Source of the DNA: Flavobacterium sp. CYK-55
Lineage (GTDB): Bacteria > Bacteroidota > Bacteroidia > Flavobacteriales > Flavobacteriaceae
DNA length: 64,000 nt
Assembly (NCBI RefSeq): GCF_018413465.1
Contig: NZ_JAHCDK010000004.1
Span: 62,001-126,000 of the forward strand
Direction of reading: 5' to 3'
Part shown: piece after piece, positions 11,070 to 29,310 of the stretch
How positions within the stretch are numbered: the first letter of the stretch is position 1
How the letters are laid out: the number at the start of each line of letters is the position of its first letter
Notes under the pieces: model-generated
Seen by the model: the letters and a program-made list of their open reading frames with translations, nothing else
Database searches by the model: none
What the model was told of the DNA's origin: nothing
Position numbers and translations under genes: made by a program

Positions 11070-11094
11070 AATTCGTAATTCGTAATTCGTAATT
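11070..11094. repeat. Right inverted repeat of four-helix cassette
   Basis: Three perfect units of attcgta plus att, the reverse complement of the left repeat at 10672-10706. Its right edge touches the stop codon of the small membrane protein gene (11093-11095). Confidence 0.85.
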
Positions 11095-14002: not shown

Positions 14003-14090
14003 GGCGTGACCACAAGGGTCGGGCTATTCGTTGCAATCTTTTTTCGTTCCTCAAAAAGGATTTTCACTGCTATCCCTCACGCGTACGGCT
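14003..14090. repeat. Long imperfect hairpin element A
   Basis: Outer arms gcgtga / tcacgc, inner gggctat against gctatccc and caatc against gattt, plus a side hairpin gacc-acaag-ggtc. The order of arm motifs resembles, in reverse orientation, the element at 17084-17165. Confidence 0.6.
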
Positions 14091-14476
14091 ATAATTCAAG
14101 CGTTTGTCATCAATGAAGCTTTTAAAGATACCTGAAGTCCACCGGACTTCCTCCTTTTAATATCTACCCGAGGCGCAGCCGAACTGAGCGAAGCTAAATC
14201 TCACGCAATCGAGACACGCTACGCTACAGACACGCTGCGCTACAGACACGGTTAAAACCTACAGACTCGCTGCACTAAAGACCCCTGCGCTTTGGGATAA
14301 AAGGAATCGTCGGTTTCACGAATTCAATTACTTCAAAAATCAACAATCGTTAATCTTCAATCGTTAATCATTACAGACCGCTGCGCTTGAGGACAAAAGG
14401 GATGGTAAGATGGATTCATCGTTGAATCAAACCTCAGAAAATGCTTTGATTGATACCATCACGATTGTTCAAAAAC

Positions 14477-17083: not shown

Positions 17084-17165
17084 CCCGCAGCCCTGGTGGA
17101 AGTGGCGTCCTTGCCGGCCGGGGTTCGGCCTGCAAGACACAACGAACGACAGGAATAGCTGCCCA
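17084..17165. repeat. Long imperfect hairpin element B
   Basis: Arms cagccctg...gtggcgtccttgc and gcaagacaca...cagg..agctg pair imperfectly, with an inner GC-rich hairpin ggccg / cggcc. It lies between the murQ run and a lipoprotein gene and is much richer in GC than its surroundings. Same general architecture as 14003-14090 read on the other strand. Confidence 0.6.
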
Positions 17166-18423: not shown

Positions 18424-21132
18424 CTATTCTAACGACAAAGTAATTTGTCCGTCATCATCGAGTTCAGTCGGAATATCCGGAGCGTCTATTTCATCTAAAG
18501 CTGCCATGGTTTCTTCAGGCTCAGCTTCTTCAGGCGCTTCATAAGGCAACGATTCGAGCAAATTGATTTGTTTGAGCTTATCAGTCGTGAGTTGGTTTCC
18601 GAGCGCTTTAAAGCCTTTGACGGTGATGAAGGCTTCCATATCTACCACCAAATTCTCTTTTTGTACACCTTTGTTTTTGGCAAACACCAATTCGGCCACC
18701 GGACGATAATCGGTCGAGACAATCTCTAAACGCGTATTGGGGTGATCATTGATAAATGAATCGTCTTTACCTTCGGTCTCAACCAAGAAACGTTTGAGAA
18801 AGTAACGTTCTTTCTCGCCATCGTAATAAATGGCCGAAATCGGTTTGGTCGGTATCCACTTTTCAAGCACAATCATATCTTCGTCAAAGTGCGTGGTGAG
18901 TTCCGGAATAATGGTTTTGATTTTTCCGGATTGATGAATAATCAGCAAACGATCATTGGGTTTAAACTCACCCAAAAGTTCACCACGGCCGTCTACGTTG
19001 AGGCGCTGAACGGTATCGTCAAACCAAACTTTTCTAGGGCGCAAGGTGGAGATGCCTTTTTCTTTGAGTTCAATTTTCTTGATCGGATATTTGCTCACGG
19101 TGTTTCCGCGAGAAGCGCGTCCTTTGATCATGACCTCGGCAAAATCAACATCCCATTTGAGTTTTTTGATGCTGCCCACCTGACGCAATAAAATGGTCAC
19201 GGTTTCGGCTTCACCATTCGGATTGGCCGAGAAATACAACACCATACTGCCCGGTTTTTCTTGGGTCAAATCATAAAACTTATCACGCGTAATGCCCGAA
19301 ACATTGAATCGTTTGATGAACGCAGCTCCGTTTTTTCCATCGCGATAAATCATGTTGTAAATGGTGCGTTTGTCATTTTTGTCAAACACAGCGGCGTAAA
19401 TGATGTCTTTGCCAATGAACTTTTTGTCATCCACCTTGGCCACCATCATGCGGCCATCGCGCAAGAATACAATGACATCATCAATGTCAGAACAATCGGC
19501 TATGTATTCATCGCGTTTGAGGCTGGTTCCGATAAAACCTTCCTCGCGGTTCACGTATAATTTGGTGTTGCGCAAAACCACTTTGGTCGCCTCAATCGTA
19601 TCAAAGTTGCGAATCTCGGTTTGACGCTCACGACCTTTGCCGTATTTGTCTTTGAGGTTCTGAAAATAAGCAATCGCAAAATCAGTCAAATGGGCTAAAT
19701 CGTGTTTGACTTGTTCCATTTCGGCTTCGAGTTTGGCAATGCCTTCATCGGCTTTGTCTGAGTCAAAACGCGTGATGCGGATCATCGGAATCTGCGTGAG
19801 CTTTTGCAAATCATCATCGTTAATCTCGCGCACAAAATCTTTCTTGAACTTGTCAAATCGCTTGTATAAATAAGCATACAAAGATTCTCTGTCTGAATAC
19901 AATTTGAAGTCAATGTACATTTCTTCGCGGATGAAAATCTTCTCGAGCGTTGATAAATGCCATTTGTTTTCAAGTTCATCCAATTGAATTTCAAGCTCGC
20001 GTTTGAGCAAATCTTTGCTGCGTTCGGTTGAAAGGCGCAACATTTCAGAAACCCCCATAAACACCGGACTGTTGTTGACAATCACGCAACCCAAAGGAGC
20101 AATAGATGTTTCACAAGCGGTAAACGCATACAAGGCATCAATGGTTTTATCAGGCGATACGCCCGGCGGAAGGTGAATTAAGATTTCAACCTCAGCGGCT
20201 GTGTTGTCTTCAATCTTTTTGACTTTGATTTTGCCTTTTTCATTGGCCTTTAAAATACTGTCAATCAGCGACGAAGTGTTGGTGGTAAACGGAATTTGAT
20301 TGATCACCAAAGTCTGTTTGTCGAGTTGCGAAATTTTGGCGCGCACCCGAACGCGTCCACCGCGCATACCGTCATTGTAATTCGATACATCAGCAATACC
20401 GGCCGTCGGGAAATCAGGAAATATCGCGAAAGGTTTTCCTTTGAGAATTTTAATCGAAGCGTCAATGAGCTCGTTGAAATTGTGCGGTAGAATTTTGGTC
20501 GATAAACCTACGGCAATCCCTTCGCCTCCTTGGGCCAGCAACAACGGAAACTTGACCGGCAAATGAATCGGCTCGTTTTTTCGACCGTCATAACTCAGTT
20601 GCCAATTCGTGACTTTGGGCGAATACAAAATGTCTTGCCCAAGCTTTGAAATGCGCGCTTCAATATAACGCGAAGCCGCAGCACCATCGCCTGTGAGGAT
20701 GTTTCCCCAGTTTCCTTGCATGTCAATGAGCAAGTCTTTTTGACCAATTTGTACAATCGCATCACCAATACTGGCATCACCGTGCGGATGGTATTGCATC
20801 GTGTGCCCGACTATGTTGGCTACTTTGTTGTAGCGTCCGTCGTCGAGTTCTTTCATCGAGTGCATGATGCGTCGCTGCACGGGCTTAAAACCGTCTTCAA
20901 TAGCGGGCACCGCGCGCTCGAGAATTACATACGAGGCATAATCCAAAAACCAATCTTTATACATACCGGTTACCTTGGTAATGGTATCGTCGGGGTTTTC
21001 GTCGTTTTCGTAAAAATGACTTCCGGTGGATGGGCGAATCACATCGTCAAAACCTTCAGCGTTTTCATCGGCTGAGGCTTCGTTGGAGGGTTCTCCTTCG
21101 GGAAGGTTATCAAATTCTTCTTCGTCTTTCAT
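18424..21132 (-). CDS. parC: DNA topoisomerase IV subunit A
   Basis: 902 residues. An acidic N-terminal extension (1-50) is followed by the breakage-reunion domain with the catalytic tyrosine Y156 in ASRYIEARIS and HPHGDASIGDAIV before it. The C-terminal part is divergent and ends in an acidic tail. The enzyme unlinks daughter chromosomes together with ParE. parE lies upstream on the same strand, but the two are split by about 875 bp holding a repeat cassette. GyrA is the alternative; the parE neighbour and sequence favour ParC. Confidence 0.9.
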   Translation of the reverse strand: MKDEEEFDNLPEGEPSNEASADENAEGFDDVIRPSTGSHFYENDENPDDTITKVTGMYKDWFLDYASYVILERAVPAIEDGFKPVQRRIMHSMKELDDGRYNKVANIVGHTMQYHPHGDASIGDAIVQIGQKDLLIDMQGNWGNILTGDGAAASRYIEARISKLGQDILYSPKVTNWQLSYDGRKNEPIHLPVKFPLLLAQGGEGIAVGLSTKILPHNFNELIDASIKILKGKPFAIFPDFPTAGIADVSNYNDGMRGGRVRVRAKISQLDKQTLVINQIPFTTNTSSLIDSILKANEKGKIKVKKIEDNTAAEVEILIHLPPGVSPDKTIDALYAFTACETSIAPLGCVIVNNSPVFMGVSEMLRLSTERSKDLLKRELEIQLDELENKWHLSTLEKIFIREEMYIDFKLYSDRESLYAYLYKRFDKFKKDFVREINDDDLQKLTQIPMIRITRFDSDKADEGIAKLEAEMEQVKHDLAHLTDFAIAYFQNLKDKYGKGRERQTEIRNFDTIEATKVVLRNTKLYVNREEGFIGTSLKRDEYIADCSDIDDVIVFLRDGRMMVAKVDDKKFIGKDIIYAAVFDKNDKRTIYNMIYRDGKNGAAFIKRFNVSGITRDKFYDLTQEKPGSMVLYFSANPNGEAETVTILLRQVGSIKKLKWDVDFAEVMIKGRASRGNTVSKYPIKKIELKEKGISTLRPRKVWFDDTVQRLNVDGRGELLGEFKPNDRLLIIHQSGKIKTIIPELTTHFDEDMIVLEKWIPTKPISAIYYDGEKERYFLKRFLVETEGKDDSFINDHPNTRLEIVSTDYRPVAELVFAKNKGVQKENLVVDMEAFITVKGFKALGNQLTTDKLKQINLLESLPYEAPEEAEPEETMAALDEIDAPDIPTELDDDGQITLSLE

Positions 21133-21140
21133 TTATTTGG

Positions 21141-21472
21141 GTAACACAAAGTTTCGCTATGTGTTTATTTGGTTATTTTGAGTCATTCTTTTTTTGGTAA
21201 CACAAAGTTTCGCAAAGTTTACACTAAGTTGCACAATGTATTTATTTGATTATTTTGAGTCATTCTTTTTTTGGTAACACAAAGTTTCGCAAAGTTTACA
21301 CTAAGTTGCACAATGTGTTTATTTGGTTATTCTGAGTCATTCTTTTTTGTAACACAAAGTTTCGCAAAGTTTACACTAAGTTGCACAATGTGTTTATTTA
21401 GTTATTCTGGGTCATTCTTTTTTTGGTAACACAAAGTTTCGCAAAGTTTACACTAAGTTGCACAGTGTGTTT
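21141..21472. repeat. Five-copy tandem repeat, about 77 bp per unit
   Basis: Unit begins gtaacacaaagtttcgc, continues with aaagtttacactaagttgca, and ends with gtgtttatttggttattct and a gtcattc T-run. Copies start at 21141, 21197, 21274, 21349 and 21426. The first copy lacks the central part. It fills the space between the parC start and the GxxExxY stop. Confidence 0.93.
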
Positions 21473-21473
21473 T

Positions 21474-21911
21474 TTAATTATTTAAAATCAATCTTTTAAT
21501 ACCATCTTTTAGAGACCTTTTATAAAAATTGATTAACAATCCTAATTTGGCATCAGATAGTTTCATATAAGTGAGGCATTGGGCAATATGTTCTGTGCTG
21601 ATGTCTTGCACAACTTTCAACTCAACAATCACTTTTTTATTTACAAACAAATCGACTCTGTAGCCACAATCAATTTTTATCTGATCATAAACAACCGGAA
21701 ATCCTTTTTCTTGTTCAACTTGCAAACCTTCACGCTTCAATTCAAACGCTAAACATTCGCGATAAACTTTTTCAAGCAATCCAGAACCTAGTCTTGAATG
21801 CACTTTGTAAGCACAATCAAGCACTTTTCTACTAATCTCATTTTCCTCAAACATCACTATTGGCGTATATAATTTAACTTCGTGTAAACTTCGTGCAACT
21901 TTGTGCTCCAC
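21474..21911 (-). CDS. GxxExxY protein, PD-(D/E)XK nuclease family (PDDEXK_3)
   Basis: 145 residues from ATG 21911; the likelier family-like start is ATG 21854 (MFEENEISRKVLDCAYKVH), giving 126 residues. It shows the name-giving G-SGLLEKVY stretch (43-50) and putative nuclease residues D87 (YRVDLF), E97 and K99 (VELKVV). The fold is a restriction-endonuclease-like core; the biological role of the family is not established. The first 19 residues of the long form are translated repeat DNA. The gene sits between inverted copies of a cacaaagtt-type repeat, inserted between parE and parC. Confidence 0.85.
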   Translation of the reverse strand: MEHKVARSLHEVKLYTPIVMFEENEISRKVLDCAYKVHSRLGSGLLEKVYRECLAFELKREGLQVEQEKGFPVVYDQIKIDCGYRVDLFVNKKVIVELKVVQDISTEHIAQCLTYMKLSDAKLGLLINFYKRSLKDGIKRLILNN

Positions 21912-22007
21912 CTTCTACAAGCACTTTCCCACTAATCGCATTTTACTTAAACATAACTATTGGCGTGTAATTTAACTTCGCGTAAACTTCGAGCAACTTT
22001 GTGCTCC
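21818..22007. repeat. 100-bp direct duplication of GxxExxY 5' end
   Basis: Copy 21818-21909 covers the gene start; copy 21918-22007 is its diverged duplicate, which ends at the parE stop codon. Both end in acttcgtgcaactttgtgctcc-type sequence, the opposite orientation of the motif in the 77-bp array. Confidence 0.88.
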
Positions 22008-23858
22008 TTACTCAACCGCATCTAATTCTACCTTCAAATTATTGATGATAAAGTCTTGTCGATCCGGCGTATTTTTACCCATATAAAACTCGAGCAAAGT
22101 TTCAATCGGGGTAGCTCTATCGAGCATCACCGGATCTAGACGAATGTTATCGCCAATAAAGTGTTTGAATTCATCGGGCGATATTTCTCCGAGCCCTTTA
22201 AATCGGGTAATCTCAGGTTTGGGTTTGAGTTTTTCAATGGCTGCGATACGCTCTTCATCGCTGTAGCAATAGATGGTTTCTTTTTTGTTGCGCACCCGAA
22301 ACAACGGTGTTTGCAAAATAAACAAATGCCCTTCTTTGATGAGTTCGGGGAAAAACTGTAAAAAGAAGGTTATAAGCAGCAAACGAATGTGCATACCATC
22401 CACATCGGCATCGGTGGCAATGACAATGTTGTTGTAGCGCAAACTGTCGTAATCTTCTTCAATGTCAAGCGCCGCTTGCAACAGGTTGAACTCTTCGTTT
22501 TCGTAGACAATCTTTTTGGTCATGCCATACGAATTGAGTGGCTTTCCGCGCAAACTAAATACCGCTTGCGTATTCACATCGCGGCTTTTGGTAATCGAGC
22601 CCGAAGCCGAGTCGCCCTCGGTGATAAACAACGTACTCTCAAGGCAGCGCTCATGCTTGGCATCGGTAAGATGCACCCTACAATCGCGCAATTTTTTGTT
22701 GTGCAAACTGGCCTTTTTGGCACGTTCGCGTGCTAGTTTTCTGATGCCCGAAAGCTCTTTGCGCTCGCGCTCGGCTTGCAAGATTTTCTTGAGCAACGCA
22801 TCGGCCACTTCAGGATTTTTATGCAAGAAATTATCGAGTTTGGTCGCGACAAAATCATTGATAAACGTTCGTATACTTGGGCCATTCGGGCCAATATCGG
22901 TCGAGCCTAATTTGGTTTTGGTTTGTGATTCAAATACAGGCTCCTCAACTTTAACCGAAACGGCAGCCACGATTGATTTGCGAATATCTGAAGCTTCGAA
23001 GTTTTTGTTGTAAAAATCGCGAATGGTTTTAACCACCGACTCTCTAAACGCGTTCAAGTGCGTTCCGCCTTGGGTGGTGTTTTGCCCGTTCACAAACGAG
23101 TGATACTCTTCAGAATACTGCGACTTGCTGTGGGTCAGGGCCAACTCAATATCATCGCCTACCAAATGAATGATCGGGTAAACGGTATCTTCATCGGCAA
23201 TGGTTTCTTGCAATAAATCTTTGAGGCCAAAATCAGAATAATACTTATCTCCGTTAAAATAAATGGTCAGGCCTGTATTGAGGTAGCAATAGTTTTTAAG
23301 CATACGCACCACGTATTCATGGCGGTATTTATAGTTTTTAAAGATCACATCATCGGCCACAAAACTCACTTTGGTTCCGCGGCGTTTGGTGCTTTCTTGA
23401 ATTTCTTCTTCTAAGGTAAGATCACCGGCTTTAAACTCGGCGGCCTTTTGTTGGTTGTCACGCACCGACTCAACCCGAAAGTAGTTCGACAAAGCATTGA
23501 CTGCCTTGGTACCCACCCCGTTGAGTCCGACTGATTTTTTAAAGGCTTTGGAATCATATTTTCCGCCGGTGTTCATTTTTGAAACTACATCAACCACTTT
23601 GCCCAGCGGAATACCACGTCCATAATCGCGTACGGTAACCATTTTATCTTTGACCGTTACCTCAATGGTTTTGCCCGCGCCCATGACAAACTCATCAATA
23701 CAGTTGTCAATGACTTCTTTGAGCAAGATGTAAATACCATCGTCGGGCGCTGAACCGTCGCCGAGTTTTCCGATGTACATACCCGGCCGCATACGGATGT
23801 GCTCTTTCCAGTCTAGCGAGCGTATATTATCTTCGGTATATTGTGTTTGTTCAGACAT
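22008..23858 (-). CDS. parE: DNA topoisomerase IV subunit B
   Basis: 616 residues: GHKL ATPase with EVIDNCIDE and GRGIPLG, a transducer region, and TOPRIM with TEGDSASG and [12 protein letters not shown]. The length without a large insert and the pairing with parC support ParE rather than GyrB. Its stop codon directly abuts the duplicated repeat of the GxxExxY cassette. Confidence 0.93.
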
Positions 23859-24705: not shown

Positions 24706-25238
24706 GATGTATGGATTATATTTTGAGGCCACAAGATATTATTTTTTAGTTATATTTTGGAGAGGCTGAGAAACTGCGCGGAATGATTAACGATGGTTGA
24801 TTTTTGAAACATTGGTGTAACCGAGAACATATTACAGGTTTAAAAAGTGTAAAAGGTTTAAGAAGTTTAGTTGAAGCCCCATTCGTAATTCGTAATTCAT
24901 AATTCGTAATTCATAATTCGTAATTCTTACAGCGTAGCGGTCTTACAGCGCAGCGGTCTTACAGCGTAGCGGTCTGTAGGCGCAGCCGTGTCTATAGCGT
25001 AGCGTGTCTCTAAATCAGCCGTATCCTGTCATTCCGACGCAGGAGGAATCTCACCCCTCATCTCAGGCACTCAGGCACTCAGCGCCTCAGGCACTTTTTT
25101 TTGCTTCTGTAAGAAATTTTACTACATTTACCACACTCACCACTTTATTTACTGCATAATAACCGCCGCTTGAGAGGAGACTTTTGAGGGTGGAGGTTTT
25201 TTTTAGAACTTAAGAGGTATATACTAGTTACCAGCAAT
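24706..25238. repeat. Repeat-filled gap upstream of DUF6438 gene
   Basis: 533 bp with no gene. It contains a gtttaaaaagtgtaaaagg-type segment (24834-24880) shared with 28320 and 28459; an attcgta / attcata 7-bp array (24881-24926); a 16-bp array (24925-25004); and a ctcaggca tandem (25062-25094). Confidence 0.8.
24925..25004. repeat. 16-bp tandem array
   Basis: Three near-identical units of tcttacagcgtagcgg, followed by two diverged units of the same length. It is the reverse complement type of the units at 29223 and 14213. Confidence 0.85.
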
Positions 25239-28237: not shown

Positions 28238-28855
28238 GTAAGAAAATTAAAATCCAAAAATACACAAATAGCAGGTAATTTACTAGCAAAACGTCACCTA
28301 ACATGTGCTCAGGTAGCAATACAAGTTTAAAAAGAATAAAAGGTTGAGAAGTTTATATTGAAGCCTAATTCGTAATTCATTCAGCGCAGCAATCGTTCTC
28401 CTCATTCCAACACAAGAGCAATCTCAGACACTTCCCTTCTCAAGTGCTCCATTAGCAATACAAGTTTAAAAAGAGTAAAAGGTTGAGAAGTTTATTTTAA
28501 AGCCTAATTCGTAATTCATAATTCGTAATTCATACAACGACGCGTGTATAGCGTAGCGTACCCCACACCAAACCCCACAGTTTCACGCAACTATCCACCA
28601 CACCCAAATTCCACCAACCACCGCACACGTACGGCCATGACCGCTGCGCTCAGTAGCCGCCAATGTTGGGTTCGACACGCACTGCGCTGGTACTGTTAAA
28701 GGCCAGAGCTCCCACAACGGTGCTGGTAAAGCGCTATACAAATTTATGCCAAAATGGCTTTCGCACAGCGGGGGTAGCACCCCAAAAATGTTAAAATTGC
28801 AAAAAAAGGCTTTTTTGTACGAAAAGAGTTATAATTCCGGCATTTTTAAAAAGGG

Positions 28856-29222: not shown

Positions 29223-29310
29223 GGACACGCTGCGCTATAGACACGCTGCGCTATAGACACGGCTGCGCCTACGGACACGTTGCACTACAGACCGCTGCGC
29301 TTTAGGACAA
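29223..29310. repeat. 16-17-bp tandem array
   Basis: Two perfect units of gacacgctgcgctata, then degenerate units (gacacggctgcgccta, gacacgttgcactaca, gaccgctgcgctttag). Same family as the arrays at 14213 and, inverted, 24925. Confidence 0.85.

Follow-up and report, generated by a model that had tools for sequence, protein, structure and literature searches.

The parE–parC locus and the unit between its genes

The window, i.e., the whole stretch of 64,000 nucleotides of Flavobacterium sp. CYK-55 DNA that was analyzed, contains a parE-type gene for topoisomerase subunit B (22008–23858, reverse strand) and a parC-type gene for topoisomerase subunit A (18424–21132, reverse strand; NF009397 above its cut-off), which are the upstream and downstream host neighbors, respectively, of a small GxxExxY / PDDEXK_3 nuclease gene (21474–21854, reverse strand; 126 aa from its ATG start; TIGR04256, PF13366). 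Inverted copies of the word CACAAAG lie on both sides of this gene. The first-pass annotation had described the gene and its repeats as one unit filling the junction, and the borders that it gave are accurate: the outer repeat ends at 22007, at the parE stop, and the array side starts at 21141, leaving 8 bp to the start of parC. The likely start of the nuclease gene is the ATG at 21854; a longer GTG frame, to 21911, runs through an arm.

The 3′ side is occupied by a tandem array (21144–21497; TRF score 568), the 77-bp unit of which consists of an arm (CACAAAGTTTCGCAAAGTTTACACTAAGTTGCACAATGTG) and a spacer of approximately 40 bp, and the end of which overlaps the last codons of the nuclease gene. 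The array had been counted at five copies; it is present as such, but amounts to 4.6 copies, namely four full ones and a 47-bp partial copy. The 5′ side comprises an inner arm (21870–21909), inverted relative to the array, and an outer copy (21918–22007), in which a duplicated gene start (21918–21969; about 12 codons, coding lost) is followed by an outer arm (21968–22007) that ends beside the parE stop. The two copies of approximately 100 bp that had been reported on this side are real and agree over 52 nt at 87% and over 40 nt at 95% identity. Since the beginning of the gene (~12 codons) is contained in both, they reflect a tandem duplication of the arm together with the gene start, and the outer copy is a dead gene fragment.

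The inverted arms around the gene are 83–87% complementary over 30–35 nt: positions 21876–21905 match 21201–21230, 21278–21307, and 21430–21459 at 87%, and positions 21876–21910 match 21348–21382 at 83%. A core in opposite orientation on the two sides, as proposed previously, is thus borne out, and with up to three mismatches it occurs six times in the window vs. 0.09 times expected. The GxxExxY gene and the 77-bp repeat are each found at one place in the 3.15-Mb genome (53 contigs), in which no further copy of the repeat was found; the two-unit CRCARAG pattern has five matches in this genome, four of them within the array and one outside the window. We take the unit to be an old insertion between parE and parC, the arms of which were enlarged via tandem duplication.

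Family, fold, and selection of the GxxExxY protein

The protein is a clear member of the TIGR04256 / PF13366 family (TIGR04256: E 3e-43, 146.7 bits, curated cut-off 35; PF13366: E 6e-42, 143.1 bits, curated cut-off 22). PF13366 is the sole Pfam family that it matches, and a Y1 (HUH) transposase domain is absent. Twelve positions are invariant in 31 diverse members (G23, G25, E28, Y31, L35, D68, E78, K80, Q92, G105, N109, and F110), and the putative PD-(D/E)XK active-site set consists of E28, D68, E78-x-K80, and Q92. The nuclease residues predicted earlier as D87, E97, and K99, which correspond to D68, E78, and K80 when counted from the ATG, are therefore among the invariant ones. No cysteine is invariant or nearly so across the 31 sequences.

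The fold model of the window protein (pLDDT 89.8, from 21 sequences) displays a PD-(D/E)XK fold, for which the best aligned chain is SSO0001 (4ic1; VIA-align Z 9.7), followed by 3ijm (Z 8.4) and archaeal Hjc (Z 7.1). Foldseek also returned SSO0001 (4ic1), along with lambda exonuclease, at E 7e-3 each. As no Foldseek match against the PDB has an E below 0.001, the fold kinship rests on the VIA-align Z of 9.7 together with the motif order E, D, ExK, QxxxY, which is common to GxxExxY and Cas4/RecB nucleases. The enzyme resembles nucleases of the Cas4/RecB type, SSO0001 being a Cas4. One relative, L199, has weak similarity to Cas4 (PADLOC 5.5e-5; Pfam 7e-4, under the cut-off), and the PADLOC matches that bear on an anti-phage role are likewise weak (PDC-M36A 5.4e-5; Cas4 5.5e-5). 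Cas4 holds four cysteines for an iron–sulfur cluster; unlike the Cas4/RecB nucleases, the GxxExxY protein is 126 aa long, has no conserved cysteine, and is accompanied by its own repeats on both sides. Cas4 has a place in CRISPR adaptation modules; at the locus of the window, the genes next to GxxExxY are parE and parC.

Selection on the gene is purifying: among 16 parE-site genes, dS was usable in 100 of the 120 pairs, and the median dN/dS of these is 0.063. Despite this, parE-site GxxExxY genes diverge faster than their host neighbors: the median identity to the window is 75.8% for GxxExxY (15 loci), 91.8% for the C-terminal part of ParE (15 loci), and 83.9% for the N-terminal part of ParC (13 loci). 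GxxExxY genes are present in 79 of the 101 sampled genomes of the genus, at one to nine copies each, and GxxExxY proteins in 122 of 247 sampled Bacteroidota genomes (120 of them above the family cut-off).

Matched arms and subfamily-specific words at GxxExxY loci

The association of gene and inverted arms extends well beyond the window. The set that was compared comprises 143 genes, each unique and with no less than 150 bp of sequence to either side, retained from 172 gene matches after duplicates and short ones were removed; it represents a part of the GxxExxY genes found, best-scoring first. The 250 bp upstream of each gene were aligned to the reverse complement of the 250 bp downstream, and the score was compared with those of 100 dinucleotide shuffles. 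All shuffles were beaten at 108 of the 143 GxxExxY loci vs. none of 41 control genes of the same loci, and the test was passed by 22 of the 29 phylum-wide loci, i.e., Bacteroidota outside the genus; 35 of the 143 loci did not pass. The first-pass annotation had suggested that a nuclease gene is tied to its own repeats and that the flanks of GxxExxY loci be compared, and this comparison upholds the suggestion, with matched inverted arms at most loci and words that differ by subfamily. For 111 loci compared earlier, the downstream flank belonging to the gene itself has a median rank of 4th of 111, and 84 loci beat all shuffles; nine words counted, the word units have the expected orientation on both sides at 73 of these loci and the wrong one at eight. 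At one locus, that of a Kapaibacteria MAG (L061), strong arms are reversed, with CTTTGTG upstream and CACAAAG downstream. The outer ends of the arms often begin with AACC or ACC, the 18 gene-less sites among those examined for this having been picked by that very pattern.

By inspection, the word of the arms is characteristic of the protein subfamily: CACAAAG for the window type, CGCAAAG or CACAAAG for the LESAYEECLFYEL type, CACAGAG or CACAAAG for the LESAYQECL type, CACAGATT or CACGGATT for the LEVVYKDALE type, CGCAGATTT for the QIRG type, CATTAAG for the LESVYEKCLKYE type, CACATAG for the VYHKCLLEE type, and ACGAATTA for the GAGFLEAVYEEAL type. This co-variation was quantified by comparing the upstream flank of one gene with the downstream flank of another at sites with unrelated outer flanks. 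The mean cross-side score rises with protein identity from 19.4 (30–40%) through 21.0 (50–60%) and 29.8 (70–80%) to 37.4 (above 80%, 17 pairs), and the Mantel r is 0.264, with a maximum of 0.084 among 200 permutations. Word similarity follows GxxExxY protein identity at non-orthologous sites.

A lack of any functional link, in which simple intergenic repeats would have come to lie beside the gene by chance, is consequently highly improbable; other short-word arrays with no known gene in the window would suit it, but the locus-matched words, their co-variation with the protein, and the difference between GxxExxY and control genes refute it unless the 41 controls are unrepresentative.

Members in other phyla show the arrangement to varying degrees. 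In Gemmatirosa (Gemmatimonadota), a frame-shifted GxxExxY gene lies between two complete CGCAGAG hairpins (−51.5 and −44.2 kcal/mol), and this hairpin occurs in two of 72,556 plasmid records, both from the same strain, at no fewer than 40 and 39 places. A Bacteroides plasmid carries matched arms behind radA (score 45). A Sphingomonas plasmid (L195) holds a GxxExxY gene in the fabD–fabG operon, between the two genes and 2 bp ahead of fabG; CGCGAAG words are present on its upstream side alone. Treponema, Fusobacteria, Persicobacter, and Prevotella plasmid loci have low arm scores of 19–24.

Carriage of the gene as cargo of viruses or plasmids was considered and rejected. None of 50,697 phage records matches the window protein, viral contigs scanned three times with three further family members, in a way that detects close relatives only, gave no relative, and the eight matching records among 72,556 plasmid records are all typed as non-mobilizable. 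Distant viral look-alikes exist among the predicted structures of the virus nucleases G8DDC4 and R4TGU4, and an algal-virus gene carries the GxxExxY annotation.

Gene-less hairpins and their abundance

The two-unit CRCARAG pattern has 1375 matches in the 101 genomes of the genus, compared with 19 for the reversed pattern. Twenty sites (L229–L248) were picked, mostly where two listed matches faced each other, and none of the 20 contains a GxxExxY frame. Most of them are hairpins of approximately 80–140 bp, the outer ends of which resemble TTTAACCGCAAAG / CTTTGCGGTTAAA; the pattern is one-sided in three, and one is longer. One such solo hairpin, which folds at −33.9 kcal/mol (z −8), was used as a DNA query in 23 chosen large-genome relatives, where it has sharp edges at 96 bp. 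Its matches, as rough counts in which 21 candidates were scored per genome and a palindrome may count on both strands, number 28–57 in 16 genomes and 2–14 in the other seven. Compared with the 143 GxxExxY genes, its arms find a match on the two flanks of 29 when the orientation is as expected and of one when it is wrong, and the four best matches belong to a single subfamily, ALKVHQ..LESAYE.CLFYEL. Dispersed hairpins that lack the gene thus accompany it, as expected from the likeness to the RAYT system, albeit with another enzyme family, that had been drawn from the sequence of the window.

The abundance of the hairpins is related to the presence of the gene. CRCARAG matches have a median of 7 in the 79 genomes with GxxExxY and of 0 in the 22 genomes without; the pattern is wholly absent from seven of the former, which have the gene without the pattern, and from 15 of the latter, leaving seven that have the pattern without any GxxExxY gene. 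Pattern count and gene count are correlated (Spearman 0.57), the genes' own arms being included in this value. These arms contribute a mean of 0.37 matches per gene (109 genes, genus-centered sets), and their removal at this rate lowers the correlation to 0.48; removal of two matches per gene, far above the measured mean, lowers it to 0.19 (p 0.06). At least 10 matches remain in 26 of the 79 genomes after the former correction and in 19 after the latter, vs. one of the 22 genomes without the gene. The CATTAAG word is found in all 17 genomes with its subfamily, defined by matches of E 1e-40 or better, at a median of 14, and in 42 of the 84 others, at a median of 0.5; leaving out the three genomes with weaker matches (G046, G071, and G097) gives medians of 22.5, for the remaining 14 of the 17, and 1. 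The CATTAAG subfamily genes that were read add 0–2 matches each. For CACATAG, the link to its broadly defined subfamily is weaker (14/29 vs. 17/72 genomes, p 0.0012). The p-values for abundance are too small, since related genomes are not independent points, and the own-arm correction somewhat weakens the abundance argument; our estimate for gene and repeats as one module was nonetheless kept, since most of its weight is carried by the matching of the arms, the co-variation, and the solo hairpins.

Movement of the repeats by another enzyme, such as a Y1 transposase of the RAYT type or an IS, with the GxxExxY genes as passengers or targets, would be compatible with the Y1 transposases found in 68 of the 101 genomes and with a Y1–repeat correlation of 0.39 before correction. 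In this comparison, which covered the Y1 type only, the Y1 correlation nevertheless falls to −0.01 after correction for genome size and GxxExxY count, while that of GxxExxY remains at 0.44 after correction for genome size and Y1 transposase count. Additionally, three genomes (G004, G053, and G054) have 93, 32, and 38 pattern matches, respectively, and no Y1 match, and the words follow the GxxExxY subfamilies; the involvement of such an enzyme is therefore regarded as quite improbable.

The position of the hairpins raises a different explanation. Among 25 solo sites (20 CRCARAG and five CATTAAG), ten lie between convergent and nine between tandem genes, with none between divergent genes and the other six without a call. 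The site of the 96-bp hairpin itself, behind one conserved gene, carries the hairpin in 15 of the 23 genomes, one of which lacks the outer right end, a divergent form in two, and none in six, and most of these six have, as judged by eye, another terminator-like hairpin at that place. Such 3′-end positions and replacements, as well as the strong purifying selection on parE-site genes, would agree with a host function without mobility, in which the hairpins act as terminators or mRNA ends, the nuclease processes or regulates them, and the copies arise via ordinary recombination. However, 3′ ends also tolerate insertions, and the change of the word between subfamilies, the patchiness of gene and hairpins, and the gene-tied abundance are more typical of selfish DNA. 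A host function is accordingly judged rather unlikely.

In the genome G089, evenly spaced CACATAG pairs were considered as a recent amplification; this was rejected, as the flanks, too, are common to 12 of the 14 copies read, so that a 120-bp CACATAG hairpin rides inside a longer dispersed repeat. The copies of this longer repeat are L279–L285 and L287–L291. A second palindrome, CCCGATAGCTATCGGG or a near-variant, is nested in the hairpin arms at L257, L260, L255, L269, L271, and L229. A generic alignment of solo arms was poor.

Occupancy of the parE–parC junction and the question of mobility

ParE was found in 97 of the 101 sampled genomes of the genus, and 70 of the 97 junctions were read (30 + 40 loci). 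The GxxExxY gene lies at parE–parC in six of them, the genome of the window included, and is absent from 64, which confirms the existence of empty sites that the first-pass annotation had proposed looking for; six of the 70 junctions lack a parC beside parE owing to a contig end or a long insert. Neither do the junctions all carry the same gene without repeats, nor are the repeats scattered without a link to GxxExxY genes. Among the 27 nearest relatives in named genomes, mostly Flavobacterium, 22 are located at the same parE end.

On a ParE/ParC tree, for which 73 of 92 junctions were usable, with a few genomes in twice and approximately 240 columns, explaining the 24 occupied and 49 empty rows takes 13 changes of occupancy, compared with a mean of 20 for shuffled rows, and at least six of the 13 are forced by well supported branches. 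As judged by eye, the empty junctions of scattered lineages have in common a stretch in front of parC that looks ancestral and that is reduced to its final CATAA at several occupied junctions; a sequence common to separate empty lineages and lost from occupied ones makes the occupied state look derived. The patchy occupancy fits both repeated gain and interspecies exchange of alleles. Moreover, 23 of 60 listed junctions hold other inserts of at least 200 bp, and one of these junctions (L053) also has a GxxExxY gene; the inserts include DUF1016_N and NTase_sub_bind genes (Pfam; one example each, L116 and L091). The parE–parC junction is an insertion hotspot, and, given the other inserts, it is not special to the GxxExxY gene. 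By likeness, DUF1016-like or NTase_sub_bind-like occupants were noted at junctions L080, L090, L091, L094, L116, L126, L129, L130, L132, and L053.

The number of forced changes and the ancestral-looking sequence of the empty junctions would be expected of a homing-like selfish gene, which cuts unoccupied alleles and is copied in by repair, its arms serving mainly for binding and as repair homology. We regard this as unlikely: dozens of gene-less hairpins at many sites would be left unexplained, the tree rests on the small number of columns given above, exchange of alleles between species predicts the same pattern, and the junction receives other inserts too.

The mobility of the unit, which had been put forward with the first description of the locus, fares less well in direct comparisons. 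No target-site duplication (at least 4 nt at the ends) was found in 18 solo hairpins, which speaks against a DDE-type transposon, and a screen of the 143 genes for recent transposition, in which pairs with long common flanks were set aside as orthologs, found no two genes more than 87% identical whose sites were judged to differ. The nearest relatives mostly share the parE site, and the 77-bp repeat of the window is confined to its array within its own genome. Nevertheless, the GxxExxY gene and its repeats look like one co-evolving unit, which is probably mobile.

Comparison with known systems and proposed mechanism

In the RAYT–REPIN system, as described by its authors, a gene lies between inverted repeats, gene and repeats co-evolve, and hairpins are dispersed through the genome (PMC2817692, PMC3116915); the title of a further source (PMC3733652) gives GTAG or CGTC as tags of the REP ends. 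The GxxExxY genes resemble this system in four respects: they are flanked by two inverted repeats at most of the loci compared, they co-evolve with these repeats, as indicated by the Mantel correlation, their protein diverges faster than its neighbors, and their presence tracks the abundance of dispersed hairpins, although the genome of the window has no dispersed copies of its 77-bp repeat. In contrast to RAYT, which is a Y1/HUH transposase of the IS200/IS605 kind, the GxxExxY protein has a PD-(D/E)XK fold, and its arms are runs of 7–8-nt words, often with an AACC-type outer end. A likeness also exists to MITEs and TIR transposons, since a gene-bearing unit is accompanied by short relatives that lack the gene but have identical inverted ends; the unit differs from them in having no transposase and no target-site duplications at its solo relatives, and its ends consist of self-folding runs of words.

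We consider it fairly probable that the unit in the window is a member of a large family of repeat–nuclease modules, which would be similar to RAYT/REPIN and built on an unrelated nuclease. The anatomy of RAYT–REPIN combined with a different enzyme leads us to propose a nuclease that cuts and spreads the hairpins of its own word; by this analogy, binding, cutting, and movement would all be attributed to the GxxExxY protein. The module would consist of a gene for a single-domain, Cas4/RecB-like PD-(D/E)XK protein between two inverted arms, each arm being a few copies of a 7–8-nt word specific to the protein subfamily (CACAAAG in the window), and the two arms could pair into a long hairpin. The nuclease is envisaged to recognize its own word in the arms and to cut there, probably at arm hairpins formed in single-stranded DNA, and repair or integration of the product may then copy the arms, with or without the gene, to other intergenic sites. 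Solo arm pairs of approximately 50–130 bp, which frequently lie just behind genes at their 3′ ends, would accordingly represent non-autonomous copies. Recognition, cutting, and copying are inferred in this scheme, while the observations behind it are the anatomy, the matching of the arms, the coupling of word and subfamily, the solo hairpins and their association with the gene, the variable presence of a hairpin at one orthologous site, and the purifying selection on parE-site genes. The more far-reaching reading, in which GxxExxY genes with their word arms make up a class of small mobile DNA that is new, hairpins are copied by a lone Cas4/RecB-type nuclease from its own word with no transposase of a known kind, and successive subfamilies have rewritten the word, has in our judgment an even chance of being correct.

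In the literature that was searched, with subscription papers outside its scope, no description of a link between GxxExxY and repeats was found; the name GxxExxY was encountered only as an annotation, in passages that neither mention repeats nor give a role for the protein. The tie to hairpins would give the GxxExxY family a testable function and a visible class of intergenic repeats its cause. If true, the way of life of RAYT–REPIN arose also with an unrelated nuclease, and many intergenic word repeats in Bacteroidota and some other phyla are the footprints of one enzyme family. Since the words are specific to subfamilies, protein–DNA recognition could be read from natural pairs.

Other repeats in the window

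Arrays of AATTCGT-type words are located at 11070–11094, 24881–24926, and 28505–28534 and resemble the ACGAATTA word of another GxxExxY subfamily; as the genome has one GxxExxY gene only, they are perhaps relics. Arrays of a 16-bp GACACGCTACGCTACA-type word, to which no gene was matched, are present at 14212–14250, 24925–25013, and 29224–29305. An Rfam search of the repeats at the unit and at five other loci (L239, L241, L193, L233, and L205) gave no match. Elsewhere in the window, two Flavo-1 RNA matches score above the gathering threshold, at 14013–14094 (reverse strand) and 17085–17160 (forward strand), the latter of which begins right behind a gene end, as solo hairpins do.
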